Shown here piece by piece: positions 5,484 through 62,135 of a stretch of DNA of 64,000 nt. The notes beneath the pieces were generated by a model that saw nothing but the letters and a program-made list of their open reading frames with translations, was not told the origin of the DNA and ran no database searches. Positions within the stretch are counted from its first letter, which is position 1; every line of letters begins with the position of its first letter. The translations under genes and the position numbers were made by a program. This DNA comes from Sunxiuqinia indica (GTDB lineage Bacteria > Bacteroidota > Bacteroidia > Bacteroidales > Prolixibacteraceae), in assembly GCF_009847015.1 (NCBI RefSeq), contig NZ_WVEM01000012.1, positions 62,001-126,000 of the forward strand, written 5' to 3'.

Positions 5484-6548
5484 TTATGCTTTGCCAATAT
5501 AGTTAGCAATCCAATCGCCAACTTCCGAGGTTTTGAACGCTTTACCTTCAGCAATATCTTCGGTAACAACTTTTTCAGCCAACGAAGCGTTGACTGCATC
5601 GCGAATCAATTTTCCTTCATCCATCAGATTGAAAGCATATTCGAACATCATCGCTGCAGAGAGGATGGTTGCAATGGGATTCGCAATATCTTTTCCGGCA
5701 GCTTGTGGGTATGAACCATGAATAGGTTCAAATACCGAAGTATGGATTCCCATTGATGCAGATGGAAGCAGACCGAGAGAGCCGGTAATTACACTGGCTT
5801 CATCTGTCAGTATATCACCAAACATGTTTTCGGTAACCATCACATCAAAGTTTTTAGGCCACTGAATGATCTGCATGGCAGCATTGTCAACAAACATGTA
5901 TTCGGTTTTTACATCCGGATAGTTGGGTGCCATTTCCTGGGCAACCTCGCGCCACAAACGTGAGCTTTCCAATACATTGGCTTTATCTACAACAGTCAAC
6001 TTTTTGTTGCGTTTCAAAGCAAACTCATAGCCTAATTTCAAAATTCGCTCAATTTCAGCACGGGTATAAGTACAAGTATCAAAAGCTGTGTTTCCATCAT
6101 CTTTACGGCCTTTTTCACCGAAATAAATACCTCCGGTCAACTCGCGAATAGCCACAAAATCAGCCCCTTCAACCAACTCGCGACGAAGCGGTGATTTGTG
6201 CAATAGCGACTCAAAAGTTTCAACCGGCCGAATATTGGCGTACAAACCCAATTTTTTACGCATCAATAACAAGCCTTGCTCCGGACGTACCGTCGCTTTT
6301 GGGTTATTATCATACTTTGGATCACCAATCGCTCCGAACAGCACAGCGTCAGATTTCATACACAATTCGTGTGTGTCATCAGGATAAGGCTCACCAACTT
6401 TATCGATGGCCGCTGCTCCGGTTAAAGCGTATTTGTATTCTAATTCGTGATTAAATTTTACTGCAACGGCTTTCACCGCTTTCATGGCCTGCTCTGTTAT
6501 TTCAGGACCGATTCCGTCTCCAGGGAGAACCGCAAGATTCAATTTCAT
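5484..6548 (-). CDS. leuB: 3-isopropylmalate dehydrogenase
   Basis: The 354-residue protein is the normal length for LeuB. The start [18 protein letters not shown] is the family N-terminus. [16 protein letters not shown] holds the substrate-binding arginines near residues 95-107. The metal-binding signature [26 protein letters not shown] lies near residues 240-265. [28 protein letters not shown] follows and is part of the NAD site. The enzyme oxidises and decarboxylates 3-isopropylmalate to 2-oxoisocaproate in leucine synthesis. It is the last gene of the leu operon, with 14 bases separating it from the zinc-ribbon orphan upstream. The same enzyme could serve the citramalate route to isoleucine if leuA2 is a citramalate synthase. 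Confidence 0.95.
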
Positions 6549-6562
6549 TTTTATTTATTCTG

Positions 6563-7060
6563 TTAATTATTCCTATTTATACCAGATCTGATAACTGATA
6601 TCATCCGTTCATTTTCAACCATTTTTGAGTTATGACATCCTACTTTTTGACATACTCCCACACAATGCTGATAGGAGTTATCTTTGGTCGTAAAAAGTGT
6701 CAACATATGATTGTGGCATATGTAACAGCTTGAATAAATTGGTATTTTCGCATTGCATTCCGGGCAAAACATTTCAAGCAGATCGCCATTTTTGAATGTG
6801 ATATCAATACTCATTTTGGAGTAATCTCCAAATTTAGGGCTTAAAACTAAAAAGCCTTCATCTCCCCCATTTCTTATCACCTTAACTTTAATTCCGGGGT
6901 GGTCACTAAATTTACTGTTTTCATCAAGTAGCGAATGTCCATTCGGACAGTAGCATTTTTCAATAATAACAGTTTCTTTAATGTTAGCTGATCGTCTTTG
7001 TGGACGAAAGAATTTGTTTTTGGGAAAATGGATTTTCCCTTGTTTGGTGAATCTGGTCAT
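6563..7060 (-). CDS. Uncharacterised protein with zinc-ribbon-like cysteine pairs, inside the leu operon
   Basis: I do not recognise this 165-residue protein. It has a basic N-terminus (about 30 residues), no signal peptide and no membrane span. Cysteine pairs suggest two or more metal knuckles: CYCPNGHS near residue 37, FCPECNAKIP near 98, CYICHNHM near 112, and CVGVCQKVGCHNSK near 133. The region between the first two knuckles looks like a small beta domain. Spacing to leuA2 (12 bases) and leuB (14 bases) places it in the same transcript. A structural zinc protein or nucleic-acid/protein-binding adaptor are possible readings, but no function can be assigned. Nothing in it resembles a leucine-pathway enzyme. 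Confidence 0.8.
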   Translation of the reverse strand: MTRFTKQGKIHFPKNKFFRPQRRSANIKETVIIEKCYCPNGHSLLDENSKFSDHPGIKVKVIRNGGDEGFLVLSPKFGDYSKMSIDITFKNGDLLEMFCPECNAKIPIYSSCYICHNHMLTLFTTKDNSYQHCVGVCQKVGCHNSKMVENERMISVIRSGINRNN

Positions 7061-7072
7061 GGGGCTTATTTT

Positions 7073-8617
7073 TTAAGTGTTCGTATGTTCCAATAAATTC
7101 AACATACGAGTTGTAGCTTTAATAGCTGCTGCCGTTTGATCAGAATCCAGCCCCCGGGTTTTAAACTCCCGATCGAGCTGCCAGATAATTACCGATTCTA
7201 CTAATGCGTCAGTTTTTCCTCCCGGAGGAATTGTAACACTGTAATCCAATAATTTTGGGAACGGCTTTTTCAACCGACGATAGATGTTTTTCAATGCATT
7301 CATAAAAGCATCGTACTGACCATCTCCCGACGCAGTTGATTCGTATGTTTTTCCATCAATTTGTATGCTGAGCGTTGCTGATGGCTTTAAACCCATGGCG
7401 TGCGACAGCGAATAATTATTGATGAGAATCTTTTGTTCTAAACTCTCTTGAAGAACGTCAGCAACAATATACGGTAAATCTTCGGCAGTTACGGTTTCCT
7501 TTTTATCGCCAAGGTCAATAATCCGGTTCGTAACCATTTTTAAGGCCTCAGTCGACAGTTCAATGCCCATGTCTTCTAGGTTTGCTTTAATGTTAGCTTT
7601 TCCTGAAGTTTTCCCAAGAGCGTATGATCGGGTACGTCCAAACCGTTCCGGCAACAAATCATTGAAATACAAATTATTCTTATTATCACCGTCGGCATGC
7701 ACTCCACTACACTGGGTAAATACAAACTCCCCGATTAATGGTTTGTTGGTTGGAATTCTGATTCCAGAAAAAGTCTCTACCAATTTTGAAACCCGGTTTA
7801 ACATGCTTTCGTTCACCTTCGTTTCCATTTTCAGGTGATCTTTAATTGTTGCAATCACACTTGAAAGAGGTGCATTTCCTGCGCGCTCTCCTAATCCATT
7901 TACGGTTGTGTGTACACAGCGGATACCAGCTTTAATCGCATGAAAAACATTTGCAATTGCCAGGTCATAATCGTTGTGTGCATGAAAATCAAAGTCAACA
8001 TCGGGGAACGATTCAATCATTTCCTTACAATACATGTATGTTTCGTCCGGATCTAAAATCCCAAGAGTATCCGGCAACATAATGCGTTGAATTTTCATTT
8101 CTTTCAACTTGCCGACCATGAAGTGCACATAATCTTTGGAGTTTCTCATTCCATTTGACCAGTCCTCCAAATAAACATTGACTGCAATACCCAATTCGTT
8201 AGCGTAATCTACTGATTTTTGAATATCGGCAATATGTTCTTCCGGTGTCTTTCTCAGCTGTTGGCTGACATGTTTGTAAGATCCTTTACACAGTAGATTA
8301 ATCACCTTTCCCCCTGCCCTGTCAATCCAGTCGAGTGAGATTTTCCCATCTACAAAGCCCAATATCTCAACGCGATTAAGATAGCCAAGTTGACTAGCCC
8401 AAACCATAATTCGACGGGCTGCTTCAAATTCGCCTTCAGAAACACGAGCTGACGCAATTTCAATACGATCAACTTTTACACTTTCCAACAGCACTTTTGC
8501 GACACTTAACTTTTCAGTATCCGTGAACGACACCCCCGAGGTCTGTTCTCCATCCCTCAAGGTTGTGTCCATTATACAAAGTTCCTGGTCTTTTACTTCA
8601 ACCATTTTTCCCGTCAT
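7073..8617 (-). CDS. Second 2-isopropylmalate synthase-like enzyme (possible citramalate synthase)
   Basis: This DRE-TIM metallolyase has [15 protein letters not shown] at its N-terminus, the HAHNDYDLAIAN metal-binding histidines mid-domain, the NGLGERAGNAPL block, and a C-terminal LeuA-type allosteric domain (about the last 130 residues, with GDGQYDAFMNALK). A longer frame from 8668 would overlap leuD by 44 bases; the ATG at 8617 leaves a 7-base gap and is preferred, and 8605 is a further option. Length from 8617 is 514 residues. The true LeuA is at the operon head, so this paralogue probably condenses acetyl-CoA with a different 2-oxo acid. Pyruvate (citramalate synthase, giving isoleucine via LeuCDB) is the leading guess from the conserved Bacteroidetes order; substrate is not proven by sequence. 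Confidence 0.85.
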   Translation of the reverse strand: MTGKMVEVKDQELCIMDTTLRDGEQTSGVSFTDTEKLSVAKVLLESVKVDRIEIASARVSEGEFEAARRIMVWASQLGYLNRVEILGFVDGKISLDWIDRAGGKVINLLCKGSYKHVSQQLRKTPEEHIADIQKSVDYANELGIAVNVYLEDWSNGMRNSKDYVHFMVGKLKEMKIQRIMLPDTLGILDPDETYMYCKEMIESFPDVDFDFHAHNDYDLAIANVFHAIKAGIRCVHTTVNGLGERAGNAPLSSVIATIKDHLKMETKVNESMLNRVSKLVETFSGIRIPTNKPLIGEFVFTQCSGVHADGDNKNNLYFNDLLPERFGRTRSYALGKTSGKANIKANLEDMGIELSTEALKMVTNRIIDLGDKKETVTAEDLPYIVADVLQESLEQKILINNYSLSHAMGLKPSATLSIQIDGKTYESTASGDGQYDAFMNALKNIYRRLKKPFPKLLDYSVTIPPGGKTDALVESVIIWQLDREFKTRGLDSDQTAAAIKATTRMLNLLEHTNT

Positions 8618-8624
8618 TACACGT

Positions 8625-9212
8625 TTATTTATTTTCAAATGCTTCGATATCTTCTTTCGAGTCAACAAGAAAATCTATATCATCCAATCCATTTTGCAAA
8701 CAGTGTTTTTTATATGGATTGATTTCAAATTCTTCAGCCTCCCCGGTAGCCAGCAGGGTAAATTTTTGTTTCTCCAAATCCACTTCAAATTCGGTGGATG
8801 GATCACTTTCAATTGCCTTAAATATTTTCTCCAGAAAAGCTGGAGTAACAACAACCGGTAGCAGCCCGTTATTCAGGGCATTACCTTTAAAAATATCAGC
8901 AAAAAAACTGGAAACAACTACCCGAAAACCAAAATCGTAAATCGCCCATGCAGCATGCTCTCGGCTCGATCCACTTCCGAAGTTTTTACCTCCAACTAAT
9001 ATTTTTCCGGTGTACTTACTGTCGTTCAACGGGAAGTCGGTTATTGGCTGATTTGACTTGTCGTATCGCCAATCGCGAAAAAGATTATCGCCAAATCCTT
9101 TACGCTCCACTGCTTTTAAAAATCGCGCTGGTATTATCTGGTCGGTGTCCACATTCTCCACAGGCAATGGAACTGCCGTAGAAGTTAATGTTACAAATTT
9201 ATCGTATGCCAT
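8625..9212 (-). CDS. leuD: 3-isopropylmalate dehydratase small subunit
   Basis: The 195-residue protein matches the size of Leu[35 protein letters not shown] and the swivelling-domain loop [21 protein letters not shown] (about residues 72-93) are the family hallmarks; the latter contacts the substrate. [12 protein letters not shown] follows. With LeuC it isomerises 2-isopropylmalate to 3-isopropylmalate. The gene lies 42 bases downstream of leuC and ends 7 bases before the preferred leuA2 start, so all are likely co-transcribed and controlled by the attenuator at 12.3 kb. Confidence 0.95.
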
Positions 9213-9254: not shown

Positions 9255-10655
9255 TTACATCAATTCGCGTGGGTCTGTTATCACTCCGGTTACTGCAACG
9301 GCGGCGGCAGTCAATGGACTGGCCAACATCGTGCGTGCACCTGGCCCCTGACGGCCTTCAAAATTTCGGTTTGACGTAGATACCGCGTATTTTCCTTCCG
9401 GAATTTTATCATCATTCATTGCCAAACATGCCGAGCAACCGGGCTGACGAAGCGCCATCCCTGCATCTTCGAAAATTTGATCCAGCCCTTCAGCAAGAAT
9501 CTGTTTCTCAACGGCTTTTGACCCAGGGACCAACCACACATTTACATCGTCGGCTTTTTTCTTCCCTTTTACAAATTCAGCAAAAGCTCTGAAATCTTCA
9601 ATACGACCATTGGTACAACTTCCTAGGAATACGTAATCCACCTTTTTGCCCGTCATTGTATCTCCCGGTTGGTAATCCATGTACTTCAACGACTTCAGGA
9701 AAGTTGTTTTATCAGTTCCTTCCATTTCGCTACCAGTAGGAATTGACTGAGTAATTCCGATTCCCATTCCCGGATTTGTTCCATAGGTTATCATGGGCTC
9801 AATGTCCGCCGCATCAAAATGATACTCAGTATCAAATTTTGCTCCGTCATCAGACTTCAACGTTTTCCAATAGGCAAGCGTTTTATCCCATTCTTCTCCC
9901 TTTGGAGCGAACTCACGTCCTTTTACATATTCAAAGGTTGTTTCGTCCGGAGCAATCATTCCACCACGAGCACCACATTCAATACTCAAATTACAAAGTG
10001 TCATCCGCGCTTCCATGCTCAGGCTGGTAATCGCTGATCCTGCATATTCAATAAAATGACCTGTTCCACCACTGGTAGAAATCTGCGAGATAATGTAAAG
10101 TGCAATATCTTTTGACGTTACACCTTTACTCAGCTCACCATCAACAGTAACACGCATTTTCTTTGGCTTTGGCTGCATGATACACTGACTGGCCAACACC
10201 ATTTCCACCTCGCTGGTACCAATTCCAAAAGCAATTGCTCCAAAAGCTCCGTGCGTAGAAGTATGACTATCGCCACAAACAATGGTCATTCCAGGTTGTG
10301 TTAAGCCCATTTCAGGCCCAATAATGTGAACAACTCCGTGTCCTTCGCTTCCTAAACCATGATGAGTTATACCATGTGTTTCGCAGTTACTTTTCAGCAT
10401 GTCTACCTGATTACGCGAAAGTTCGTCCTTGATACTCAGCTCCTGATCAATTGTTGGAACATTGTGATCTGGTGTTGCGGTAGTTTGATCTGGGCGAAAC
10501 ACTTTCAATCCTCTGTTTTTCAAGCCCAGAAATGCAACAGGGCTGGTCACTTCATGAATAAAATGACGATCAATATACAATACATTTGGGCCTCCTTCTA
10601 CTTGCTTCACTACGTGAGCATCCCAAATTTTGTCGAATAAAGTTTTTGCTTCCAA
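9255..10655 (-). CDS. leuC: 3-isopropylmalate dehydratase large subunit
   Basis: This 466-residue aconitase-family protein starts [13 protein letters not shown] and contains [44 protein letters not shown] near residue 128, and the [4Fe-4S] cysteines in [15 protein letters not shown] (about residue 346) and [10 protein letters not shown] (about 407). Those three Cys positions are the cluster ligands of LeuC. The subunit pairs with LeuD from the adjacent gene. It lies 32 bases downstream of leuA. The Fe-S cluster makes the pathway oxygen sensitive, of note in a genome with several high-affinity oxidases. Confidence 0.96.
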
Positions 10656-10687: not shown

Positions 10688-12190
10688 TTATTTTACCGGA
10701 ATCTTATTTACGGCATCAATAAAAGCTTCGACCGATGCTGTGATAATATCGGTATGAGCTCCGAATCCGAAAAATTTCACGCCATCAAAGTCCAGTTCCA
10801 TATGCACCTTACCAACGTCGTCGCTTCCACGAGTAATGGCCTGAATCAAGAACTCTTCCAAGGTAACCTGACGGCGAATAATTTGTTTAACCGCATTGAT
10901 CGCTGCATCAACAGGGCCGTTACCCGAGGCTGTTGCATCAAATAGTTCTCCGGCTACGTTTATTCGAACGGAAGCCATTGGCAACAACGACTTTCCGGTT
11001 ACCACCTGCAAGAACTCCAGTTTTACGCGACGTTCCTTTTGCTCGGCATCGCCTACCAATAAAGCAACATCATCATCACGGATGTCTTTTTTCTTATCAG
11101 CCAACTCCAGAAATTTCTCATAAACGTCTTCCAACTTCTCTTTGGTCAACTCATAGCCCATCACTTCCAAACGGTGTTTCAAAGCAGCACGTCCACTTCG
11201 GGCGGTCAGCACAATCGACGATTCATTGATACCGACATCTTTGGGATCGATGATTTCATAATTCTCACGATTCTTCAACACGCCATCCTGGTGAATACCC
11301 GACGAGTGAGCAAATGCATTACGCCCCACAATCGCCTTGTTTGGCTGCACCGGCATGTTCATCAGGTTCGAAACCAATCGGCTGGTTTTATAGATATTCT
11401 TGGTATTGATATTCGTATCGAGACCCAACACCTGATAACGGCTCTTTAAGGTCATCACCACTTCTTCCAGCGATGTATTTCCGGCACGCTCGCCAATTCC
11501 ATTAATAGTTACTTCAGCCTGGCGAGCTCCATTTATAACTCCGGCTATTGTATTCGCTGTTGCCATTCCCAAATCATTATGGCAGTGGGTTGATAAAATT
11601 GCTTTTTCAACACCTCGAACATTATCAATCAGGTATTTGATTTTTTCACCAAATTCATAGGGCATCGTATAACCCGTTGTATCAGGAATATTAACAACCG
11701 TTGCCCCGGCTTTAATAACTGCTTCAACTACTTTAGCTAAATATTCGTTATCCGAACGACCGGCATCTTCGGCGTAAAACTCCACATCCTCAACATACTT
11801 TTTAGCGTATTTTACTGCAGCAACAGCACGTTCAAGAATTTTTTCAGGGGTTGAATTGAGTTTATGGTAGATATGGTAAGGTGATGTTCCAATTCCGGTA
11901 TGAATTCGTCCTTTTTTGGCATACTTGAGGGATTCGGCGGCAACATCAATGTCTTTTTCTACTGCGCGGGTAAGGGCACAAATCGTTGGCCAGGTTACCG
12001 CTTTTGAAATTTCGACTACTGATTCAAAGTCGCCAGGACTTGAAATTGGAAATCCAGCCTCGATTACATCGACACCCAATTCTTCCAAAGCTTTGGCCAC
12101 TTCAATCTTCTCAACCGTGTTTAACTGACACCCCGGAACTTGTTCTCCGTCTCTCAAGGTCGTGTCAAAAATGTACAATCTGTCGCTCAT
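10688..12190 (-). CDS. leuA: 2-isopropylmalate synthase
   Basis: The 500-residue protein starts [23 protein letters not shown]. It has the [12 protein letters not shown] metal site near residue 203, [15 protein letters not shown], and [21 protein letters not shown]-terminal LeuA regulatory domain (about residues 375-500, with [16 protein letters not shown]) binds leucine for feedback inhibition in characterised homologues. It condenses acetyl-CoA with 2-oxoisovalerate, the first committed step of leucine synthesis. As the first gene of the operon it lies about 50 bases downstream of the terminator of the leader attenuator, so its transcription should depend on the supply of charged tRNA-Ile/Leu. 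Confidence 0.95.
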
Positions 12191-12234
12191 GATGAAATGA
12201 TTTATTTATAATCTGTTACTATTGTTTACGCCAC

Positions 12235-12305
12235 AAAAAAAGCCACTCTCTTTTGAGAATGGCTTTATGTCTATTTTTTATTATTAGTTACTCCATACCA
12301 TTCTC
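12235..12305 (-). promoter_or_regulatory. Transcription attenuator of the leu operon (terminator and competing antiterminator)
   Basis: On the minus strand, GCCATTCTC (12255-12263) pairs with GAGAGTGGC (12242-12250) over an AAAA loop, with flanking AAA/TTT extending the stem, and seven T residues follow (12235-12241): a strong intrinsic terminator. Just upstream, GAGAATGG (12298-12305) is perfectly complementary to CCATTCTC of the terminator's 5' arm, giving an antiterminator. That same GAGAAT can pair with ATTCTC inside the leader codons (12343-12348). Segments 1:2, 2:3 and 3:4 therefore form the classical amino-acid attenuator: a ribosome stalled on the Ile/Leu codons masks segment 1, frees segment 2 and prevents termination. 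The mechanism is inferred; the complementarities are seen directly. Confidence 0.88.
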
Positions 12306-12306
12306 A

Positions 12307-12372
12307 TTACCGCATCCATAGTAGAATACCGAGTAGAATACCGAGAATAGAAATAGAGCTAACGTGTGTCAT
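12307..12372 (-). CDS. Leu operon leader peptide, Ile/Leu-rich
   Basis: An ATG at 12372 opens a 21-codon ORF ending in TAA at 12307. It begins MTHVSS and then reads ISILGILLGILLWMR: five Ile and six Leu in thirteen residues, partly from a tandem 12-base repeat CTCGGTATTCTA that encodes LGIL twice. AGGAA lies about 15 bases upstream. CATATTTG (minus strand, 12391-12398) resembles a -7 promoter box, which would give a very short 5' leader; no clear -33 TTTG is seen. The ORF ends two bases before the antiterminator segment, as expected for a ribosome-sensing leader. Single isolated short ORFs are usually spurious, but composition plus the attenuator make this one convincing. Confidence 0.85.
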   Translation of the reverse strand: MTHVSSISILGILLGILLWMR

Positions 12373-12565
12373 TTGTTCAATGATTTCCTGCAAATATGAC
12401 AATTTAATTTTAAACTGAAAATTTAAACGCCATTTATTTTACGATTCTTAATAAAAAGATGGAGTTGTCCGTTTTATAATCAAAACTGATTATTCTTCTT
12501 TTTCCGTTTAATATCAAGCACTCTAAAAGACCAAAAGTCTTTTTTGCAATTACCCGCTCTTTCTT

Positions 12566-12590
12566 GTAACATTTCTTATTAGCTTGCATC
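12566..12590 (+). promoter_or_regulatory. Candidate ECF-type promoter of the sigma-factor module
   Basis: GTAAC (12566-12570) and GCATC (12586-12590) are 15 bases apart, similar to -35/-10 pairs of ECF sigma factors, and lie about 30 bases before the first gene of the module. The rest of 12421-12618 is AT-rich with a weak AAAAGAC/GTCTTTT hairpin at 12525-12543. Autoregulation by the encoded sigma factor is inference from this spacing alone. Confidence 0.3.
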
Positions 12591-12618
12591 AAAGGGGCAA
12601 AACTTAAAAAATAAAACA

Positions 12619-12978
12619 ATGGAAGATTTGATGTTAACATTAGTTTGGCTTGGTTTTTTCGCCAGTATTTTCTTTGGATGGTATTACTTTCTACAGGCTC
12701 GAAATAAAGAACGAATGGCTCTGATTGAGCGGGACAAGGATGTTTCTGAAATTTATGCCAAACGTGAATTTCGGTTTCGATTTCCCTGGCTAAAGTTGGG
12801 GATGCTGATAACCGGAGTTGGTTTTGGATTGACATTAACGGTACTAATGATGATGAACCCGGTACTGGAACAATTTGTAAAGCGAACAGACGGCATGGTT
12901 GTAGCAGCATCAATAATTCTATTTGGAGGTATCTCTATGGTGATTGCCCACTACATCGACAAACCAAGCAAAAACTAG
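12619..12978 (+). CDS. DUF6249-like small membrane protein linked to an ECF sigma factor
   Basis: The 119-residue protein has an N-terminal membrane span (residues 5-25, LMLTLVWLGFFASIFFGWYY). A short basic cytoplasmic segment with ARNKERMALIERDKDVSEIY follows, then two further spans (about 57-79 and 90-110). The EKERMALIEKG-like motif is recurrent in small membrane proteins found beside sigma-70 genes of Bacteroidota, generally named DUF6249. It lies 9 bases upstream of the ECF sigma factor, so co-transcription is near certain. A role in sensing an envelope state or in sigma control is plausible but unproven. Confidence 0.75.
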   Translation: MEDLMLTLVWLGFFASIFFGWYYFLQARNKERMALIERDKDVSEIYAKREFRFRFPWLKLGMLITGVGFGLTLTVLMMMNPVLEQFVKRTDGMVVAASIILFGGISMVIAHYIDKPSKN

Positions 12979-61361: not shown

Positions 61362-62135
61362 CTAGTCACGGCTGGCCAGTTTCGATAGCAGCCTCAATAT
61401 TTCGAGGTACAACCAAACCAAAGTAACCATTAATCCGAAAGCTCCATACCACTCCATTATTTTTGGCGCCCGGGCTGCAGCACCCCTTTGGATAAAGTCG
61501 AAATCCAAAATCAAATTTAAAGCGGCAACAGCAACAACCACTAAGCTAAACCCAATGCTAAACAGACTATTGCCATGCAAAAAACCGAAACTGGCTCCAA
61601 ACATGCCCGCGATAAAACTGATGAAATAAATCAGTGCAATTCCTCCGGTAGCAGCCATTATAGCCATTCGGAACTTTCCGGTTGCCCGAATTTTTCCTGA
61701 GCGAAACAGAAACAGCATAATAAAAAACACACCAAAAGTTAAAGCCACAGCACGCATAACCAATCCCGGGTATTGGGCTTCGAAGAAAGCAGAAATACCT
61801 CCAAGAAAAAGACCTTCGAAAACAGCATAAATTGGAGCTGTAATATTAGAATAACGTGGAGCAAATACCGTAATAATGGCAACAATAAAACCGCCGATTC
61901 CGCCGCCGATTAACCACGGAGCAACGACCGAAAATGCACCTTCAGGTGAGCCATAATCATAAACACCAAAAAACTTGCGCCAGGTAAACGCAGCGGCAAA
62001 AGCCAATATCAGAAACATCAGACCGGTTTTATTTACCGTTCCATCAATGGTCATAACATCAGTTTGAGCACCCGTTTGCACCTTGCTAAAAACTGAATTC
62101 CCAAAAACCGGATTTGATGATTTTGTCAAATTCAT
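61362..62135 (-). CDS. Bax inhibitor-1/YccA family membrane protein
   Basis: The 257-residue protein has seven spans. GLMFLILAFAAAFTWRKFFGVYD (residues 38-60), GGIGGFIVAIITVFAPRYSNITAPIYAVFEGLFLGGISAFFEAQYPGLVMRAVALTFGVFFIMLFLF, and LILDFDFIQRGAAARAPKIMEWYGAFGLMVTLVWLYLEILRLLSKL are the conserved YccA blocks; the Asp pair near LDFDFI is the proposed pH-sensing/calcium-leak centre. It is a putative inner-membrane channel or FtsH modulator. It begins about 100 bases downstream of the HEAT-repeat gene. Confidence 0.92.
   Translation of the reverse strand: MNLTKSSNPVFGNSVFSKVQTGAQTDVMTIDGTVNKTGLMFLILAFAAAFTWRKFFGVYDYGSPEGAFSVVAPWLIGGGIGGFIVAIITVFAPRYSNITAPIYAVFEGLFLGGISAFFEAQYPGLVMRAVALTFGVFFIMLFLFRSGKIRATGKFRMAIMAATGGIALIYFISFIAGMFGASFGFLHGNSLFSIGFSLVVVAVAALNLILDFDFIQRGAAARAPKIMEWYGAFGLMVTLVWLYLEILRLLSKLASRD

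Follow-up and report, generated by a model that had tools for sequence, protein, structure and literature searches.

The DNA analysed here, hereafter the window, is a stretch of 64,000 nucleotides from Sunxiuqinia indica (positions 62,001 to 126,000 of contig NZ_WVEM01000012.1). Its minus strand carries a leucine operon with the gene order leuA, leuC, leuD, a cimA-like gene, an ORF of 165 amino acids and leuB (Table 1). The 165-aa ORF had no match in NCBIfam and a single match, below the cut-off, in Pfam; a relative was found in only one of 80 named loci (L034). Between the leuA start and the nearest upstream neighbour, an oppositely directed DUF6249 gene (12619-12978), lies a short leader ORF followed by a hairpin and a run of T residues. 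Just upstream of the leader a single longer frame was listed on the minus strand, a 159-aa ORF at 12434-12913, which is largely antisense to the DUF6249 gene.

Table 1. Genes and regulatory features of the S. indica leu operon (positions in the window)
Feature	Position	Strand	Remarks
leuA, 2-isopropylmalate synthase	10688-12190	-	above TIGR00973 curated cut-off
leuC	9255-10655	-	above TIGR00170 cut-off
leuD	8625-9212	-	above TIGR00171 cut-off
cimA-like gene (putative citramalate synthase)	7073-8668	-	listed start TTG; actual start possibly an internal ATG
165-aa ORF between cimA-like gene and leuB	6563-7060	-	several Cys
leuB	5484-6548	-	above TIGR00169 cut-off
Promoter-like stretch (putative)	12391-12421	-	TTTTCA 12421-12416 and TATTTG 12396-12391
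Leader ORF, 21 codons, MTHVSSISILGILLGILLWMR	12307-12372	-	Ile/Leu-rich leaders also in relatives
Segment 1 (anti-antiterminator), leader codons pairing with segment 2	12343-12368	-	duplex energy; co-variation in 61 leaders
Segment 2, core GAGAATGG (12305-12298) plus 3' extension	12284-12306	-	
Segment 3, CCATTCTC, terminator 5' arm and partner of segment 2	12255-12262	-	
Terminator hairpin 3:4	12239-12266	-	12 pairs, loop of 4, -17.0 kcal/mol
T tract, seven T	12235-12241	-	

The cimA-like gene scored 674.9 bits with the Leptospira CimA model NF042433, below the NCBIfam equivalog cut-off of 950 bits, and 345 bits with the best LeuA-type model. Its product matched the solved Leptospira citramalate synthase 3ble with an E-value of 6.5e-120 (404.3 bits, versus 168.3 for the best isopropylmalate synthase). 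By sequence similarity, then, a known citramalate synthase resembles the gene product more than 2-isopropylmalate synthase does. LeuC, LeuD and LeuB also act in the citramalate route, where they yield the isoleucine precursor. The preliminary description of this DNA had suggested that a gene it called leuA2 may feed isoleucine; that suggestion can be given a specific route, since the gene is closest to the Leptospira citramalate synthase.

The leader ORF of 21 codons was found at 12372-12307, where the preliminary description had placed it. The same holds for the complementary segments GAGAATGG (12305-12298) and CCATTCTC (12262-12255), the hairpin at 12263-12242 with the seven T residues at 12241-12235, and an ATTCTC word within the leader codons at 12348-12343. 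The amino acid count had to be corrected: instead of five Ile and six Leu in thirteen residues, the leader peptide MTHVSSISILGILLGILLWMR contains four Ile and five Leu in a run of twelve, ISILGILLGILL. The core of segment 2 starts one base past the leader stop codon, which lies 116 nt from the leuA start with the terminator in between. Counted from 12266 to 12239, beyond its core at 12263-12242, the hairpin has 12 pairs. A putative transcription start would lie at about 12386, downstream of a promoter-like stretch whose assignment leans on what we take to be the Bacteroidota promoter consensus. A TA(n0-2)TTTG motif located between 125 and 45 nt upstream of the leader stop codon was present in 58 of 61 leaders of the comparative set described below, versus 448 of 3050 mononucleotide shuffles.

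Three helices can be drawn in this region. Helix 1:2 (12368-12343 with 12306-12284; duplex energy -18.6 kcal/mol) is longer than first described; helix 2:3 has a duplex energy of -14.8 kcal/mol, and helix 3:4 is the terminator (-17.0 kcal/mol). All three are mutually exclusive. The ATTCTC word at 12343-12348, which on the minus strand forms an Ile-Leu dicodon of the leader, recurs in the terminator arm at 12255-12260. Both copies pair with GAGAAT, so that the coding word is a pairing word too.

The structure exceeds what chance would produce. The 191 nt from 12230 to 12420 folded at -49.8 kcal/mol, compared with a mean of -32.8 for shuffled sequences (z -4.5; none of 200 shuffles was as low), and contained one terminator-like site, versus 0.1 on average in the shuffles. 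For a comparison across relatives, 41 genomes were searched, 35 of which gave a match, and 30 leuA loci were taken, to which 80 named contigs were added. A detector was set up that required a terminator, a sequence further upstream complementary to the 5' terminator arm, and a short ORF holding seven or more Ile/Leu codons. This detector, written once the relatives had been looked at, was positive at 60 of the 104 unique leuA genes and in 1 of 1040 dinucleotide shuffles, the other 44 genes being missed; "unique" here means distinct over the 120 nt upstream of leuA, which leaves close relatives in the set. The 60 loci meet both detector thresholds. The Ile/Leu threshold alone is met by 61, and these 61 leaders were used in the co-variation, codon, masked-folding and nearest-relative tests. 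Because the detector picks the longest start, TTG included, some peptides are over-long, and they were trimmed to 24 residues for counts.

As a control, 555 upstream regions of other long ORFs were scanned, and 15 were positive. Ten of these were leuA read from another start codon, three were ilvD leaders with Val codons, and the remaining two (L052, L108) precede other genes. Some leaders escaped the detector: that of L016 is visible by eye and was nevertheless scored as lacking, and other misses (e.g. L053, L104 and L108) resemble leaders by eye. Positive loci fall into two sequence types, one with GAGAATGG/CCATTCTC as in the window and another with GGAAGTGAG/CTCACTTCC in Bacteroides and kin. 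The layout is present in Bacteroides and Phocaeicola loci; in Bacteroides and kin the segments differ in sequence and retain the same partners. A phylum-wide draw on 61 genomes, of which 48 had a match, supplied 30 loci. The region before leuA was checked in 29 of them, L001 being left out, and gave no convincing leuA leader and two weak matches (L188, L206). In 20 of these 29 a same-strand ORF of at least 120 aa ends no more than 310 nt upstream, so leuA may sit there within a longer operon.

Pairing between segments was assessed by a swap test, in which the pairing energy of cognate segments was compared with that of segments exchanged between loci (61 leaders, 20000 permutations). For helix 1:2 the cognate and swapped means were -16.5 and -12.7 (z -11.2), for helix 2:3 -12.6 and -10.4 (z -8.5) and for helix 3:4 -18.1 and -13.0 (z -13.7), and none of the 20000 permutations matched the cognate values for any of the three. 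The control pairing 1:4 showed no co-variation in the same leaders (z -0.7). Within the 35 leaders of the window type alone, helices 1:2 and 3:4 retained their signal (z -8.0 and -7.9); helix 2:3 gave none in this subset (z -1.4) because the segment sequence is nearly constant there. When swaps were restricted to nearest relatives (30 pairs, identity 0.53-0.91), p values were 0.0015 for 1:2, 0.044 for 2:3 and 0.0014 for 3:4, against 0.93 for the control pairing. In an alignment of the 35 leaders, 10 of 11 consensus terminator pairs were kept in all and the innermost in 33; two terminator pairs showed changes on both sides. A single consensus structure recovered the terminator alone, since helices 1:2 and 2:3 are incompatible and the leader is variable, and for this reason the swap test was used instead. 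The preliminary description had named three alternative pairings and had called for a comparison of the region before leuA in relatives; in the comparison carried out here the Ile/Leu codons of the leader and the pairings were both conserved, and the pairings co-vary.

Based on these data, we propose that leuA-leuC-leuD-cimA-like-(ORF)-leuB is controlled from this region by ribosome-mediated transcription attenuation, with isoleucine and leucine as the amino acids sensed; we put the probability of this reading at roughly 0.9. The preliminary description had arrived at the same reading, which the conserved leader codons and co-varying pairings support. The signal would be charged tRNA for isoleucine and leucine. 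With no ribosome on the leader, segment 1 would occupy segment 2 and the terminator would form. With ample Ile and Leu, a ribosome translating the leader would reach the stop codon and mask segment 2, and the terminator would again form, presumably ending the transcript at 12235. When either amino acid is scarce, the ribosome would stall on the Ile/Leu codons that come early in the leader (7 to 14) and mask segment 1; free segment 2 would then pair with segment 3 while segment 4 is still to be transcribed, and the polymerase would continue into leuA. The reason for sensing both amino acids would be a second role of LeuC, LeuD and LeuB in making isoleucine via citramalate.

This scheme was modelled by folding a transcript that ends before segment 4, with 28 nt masked as the ribosome. 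Without a ribosome helix 1:2 formed and the probability of 2:3 was 0.00. With codons 7-15 in the A site the probability of 2:3 was 1.00, and with codons 16 to 19, which include the last three Ile/Leu codons (16-18), helix 1:2 returned; in this model, antitermination would therefore follow from a stall at any of six among the nine Ile/Leu codons. With the ribosome at the stop codon segment 2 was covered and the probability of 2:3 was 0.00, a result that is partly built in because the mask covers segment 2. In the full transcript at equilibrium the terminator had a probability of at least 0.99 in every ribosome state. Since the terminator always wins at equilibrium, the switch would have to be kinetic, with 2:3 trapped before segment 4 appears. 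Among the 61 leaders, 54 gave a 2:3 probability of at least 0.5 with a stalled ribosome but not with one at the stop codon, and 37 also held 2:3 below 0.3 without a ribosome; seven failed to reach 0.5 on stalling.

The codons of the leaders follow the operon that they precede. The mean leuA leader has 5.03 Ile, 5.20 Leu and 0.39 Val residues (n=61), and the mean ilvD leader 3.79 Val (n=38; p 2.5e-17 versus the Val content of the leu leaders). Leaders with Ile, Val and Leu codons, together with a terminator, preceded 28 of the 30 ilvD loci (the exceptions being L139 and L147), versus 2 of 300 shuffles. For hisG, 30 loci were taken (L151-L179 among them), of which L153 could not be framed and was left out; leaders with at least three His codons preceded 27 of the 29 framed loci (not L152 and L167), versus none of 290 shuffles. 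CTA makes up 31% of Leu codons in the leu leaders versus 2.5% in leuA of the same loci, and ATT 80% of Ile codons versus 53% in leuA. In the S. indica genome itself, hisG (L120) is preceded by the His-rich leader MYNKLGHYGHHHNNLFIGRP and trpE (L121) by the WWW-containing leader MNQIMLTSWWWRNNFSQYRGER, each with a terminator. With leaders before hisG and trpE too, leader-peptide attenuation looks general in this genome.

The leader is also tied to gene content. A cimA-like gene was present in 29 of 29 loci with a detected leader versus 17 of 26 without one (p 0.0005, kinship ignored); this table kept 55 of the 80 loci, those in which the sequence extends beyond 6.2 kb from the start of leuA. 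In the set of 30 loci from relatives, a leuA leader was found in 20 of 24 with no ilvD within 4 kb upstream and in none of the six with it (p 0.00035, kinship ignored, and linkage judged by eye from coordinates). Thus leuA has a leader of its own mostly where it is separate from ilvD.

Several other explanations were weighed against a dual Ile/Leu attenuator. The switch may be real and sense leucine only, or just one of the pair; the codons for the other amino acid would then be present because ATTCTC is at once an Ile-Leu dicodon and the partner of GAGAAT. This double role speaks for such a reading, and so does the codon usage, where Leu shows a strong shift to rare CTA and the shift for Ile is towards ATT, the codon that leuA itself uses most for Ile. 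In addition, the S. indica genome contains a threonine ammonia-lyase (threonine-dehydratase) gene above the TIGR02079 cut-off (L112), so two isoleucine routes are likely and isoleucine need not pass through citramalate, which argues against a strict need for that route. However, the 26 leaders of the other type, with a different antiterminator sequence, still average 4.38 Ile and 4.73 Leu, and the operon includes the cimA-like gene. We regard a single-amino-acid switch as improbable, if deserving some weight.

We consider each of the remaining readings very unlikely. A plain terminator of some other transcript, accompanied by a chance hydrophobic frame, would by itself look identical, and the 159-aa minus-strand ORF does end upstream, at 12434; that ORF, though, runs for the most part antisense to the DUF6249 gene. 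The leader layout is also seen upstream of leuA far more often than in shuffles, and the codons track the operon. The co-variation of the helices already makes this reading unlikely. A cis-acting terminator ahead of an amino acid operon would also suit a T-box or another RNA that binds a metabolite or tRNA in place of a translated leader. Against this, the amino acid signal lies in a reading frame and changes with the operon, and the T-box covariance model had no match at the gathering cut-off in the window and was not among the 12 matches obtained up to E 10 in 12191-12440. The leader ORF might instead chiefly help leuA translation by re-initiation, as many genes in Bacteroidetes have short leader ORFs close by (PMC4833913). 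The peak distance given there is 11-14 bp, however, compared with the 116 nt and intervening terminator found here.

The proposed attenuator would work on the same principle as the enterobacterial leu, ilv, his and trp attenuators. The enterobacterial leu attenuator (leuL, Rfam Leu_leader) has a short leader peptide with Leu codons, rare CTA among them, and a terminator and antiterminator before leuA, all of which the S. indica element shares. Unlike leuL, it has Ile besides Leu codons, and its operon contains a cimA-like gene. At the gathering cut-off Rfam gave no match in the 64-kb window and none in six related loci, and Leu_leader was not among the hits up to E 10 in 12191-12440. The best sub-threshold leader family was Phe_leader (RF01859), with 23.8 bits versus a cut-off of 55 over 12373-12233; Thr_leader (RF00506) scored 20.2 bits, also versus 55, over 12365-12233. 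These weak matches extend across the whole model and span leader and terminator, yet the two families respond to other amino acids, and the matches probably reflect shared layout only.

A comparative study of attenuation by Lopatovskaya (2010) may include leu attenuators from Bacteroidota. No description of a leu attenuator in Bacteroidota was found in the literature searched, which covered few subscription journals. The closest reports concern Flavobacterium psychrophilum, of the same phylum and another class, where clues of leader-peptide attenuation and structured 5' regions before amino acid operons were described (the available portions of PMC9723704 name pheA and hisG and not leu), and Bacteroides thetaiotaomicron, of the same order, where short ORFs in long 5' UTRs resemble such leaders (in the available portions of PMC7366714 the example named is BT_4401, and leu is not named). 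The mechanism is known; going by Rfam, the family in Bacteroidales is apparently uncatalogued.

On balance we lean towards a single attenuator family in Bacteroidales, one small RNA layout re-tuned for each operon (with Ile/Leu codons at leu plus cimA, Ile/Val/Leu at ilv, His at his and Trp at trp) and sometimes placed in tandem before ilvD, which would imply close coupling of ribosome and RNA polymerase. Bacteroidota are said to start translation largely without Shine-Dalgarno sites, and to our knowledge ribosome-RNA polymerase coupling is not settled in this phylum. Attenuation by a stalled ribosome requires the ribosome to keep pace with RNA polymerase, and the leaders could provide a ready assay for coupling in Bacteroidota. 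They also offer a testable mechanism by which Bacteroidales, many of whose members live in the gut, would control branched-chain amino acids. The joint Ile and Leu content fits a cimA-like gene that would make the leu operon also an isoleucine operon, and would be a regulatory clue to the function of that gene.

Two further arrangements were observed among the loci. In six of them (L068, L080, L084, L089, L090 and L107), three of them recorded as Muribaculaceae, leuA-leuC-leuB was found with no cimA-like gene and no detected Ile/Leu leader. Upstream of ilvD in S. indica (L111, contig C35) there are two leader-plus-terminator units in tandem, MKIQAIVLNVIILLVVVISQAK followed by MRHFTTIHLVLLVVILGFR. 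Tandem units of this kind preceded ilvD in 10 of 30 loci (L111, L123, L126, L129, L130, L131, L133, L137, L140 and L144) and in none of 300 shuffles; tandem attenuators are reported for Salmonella mgtCBR (PMC3641672).
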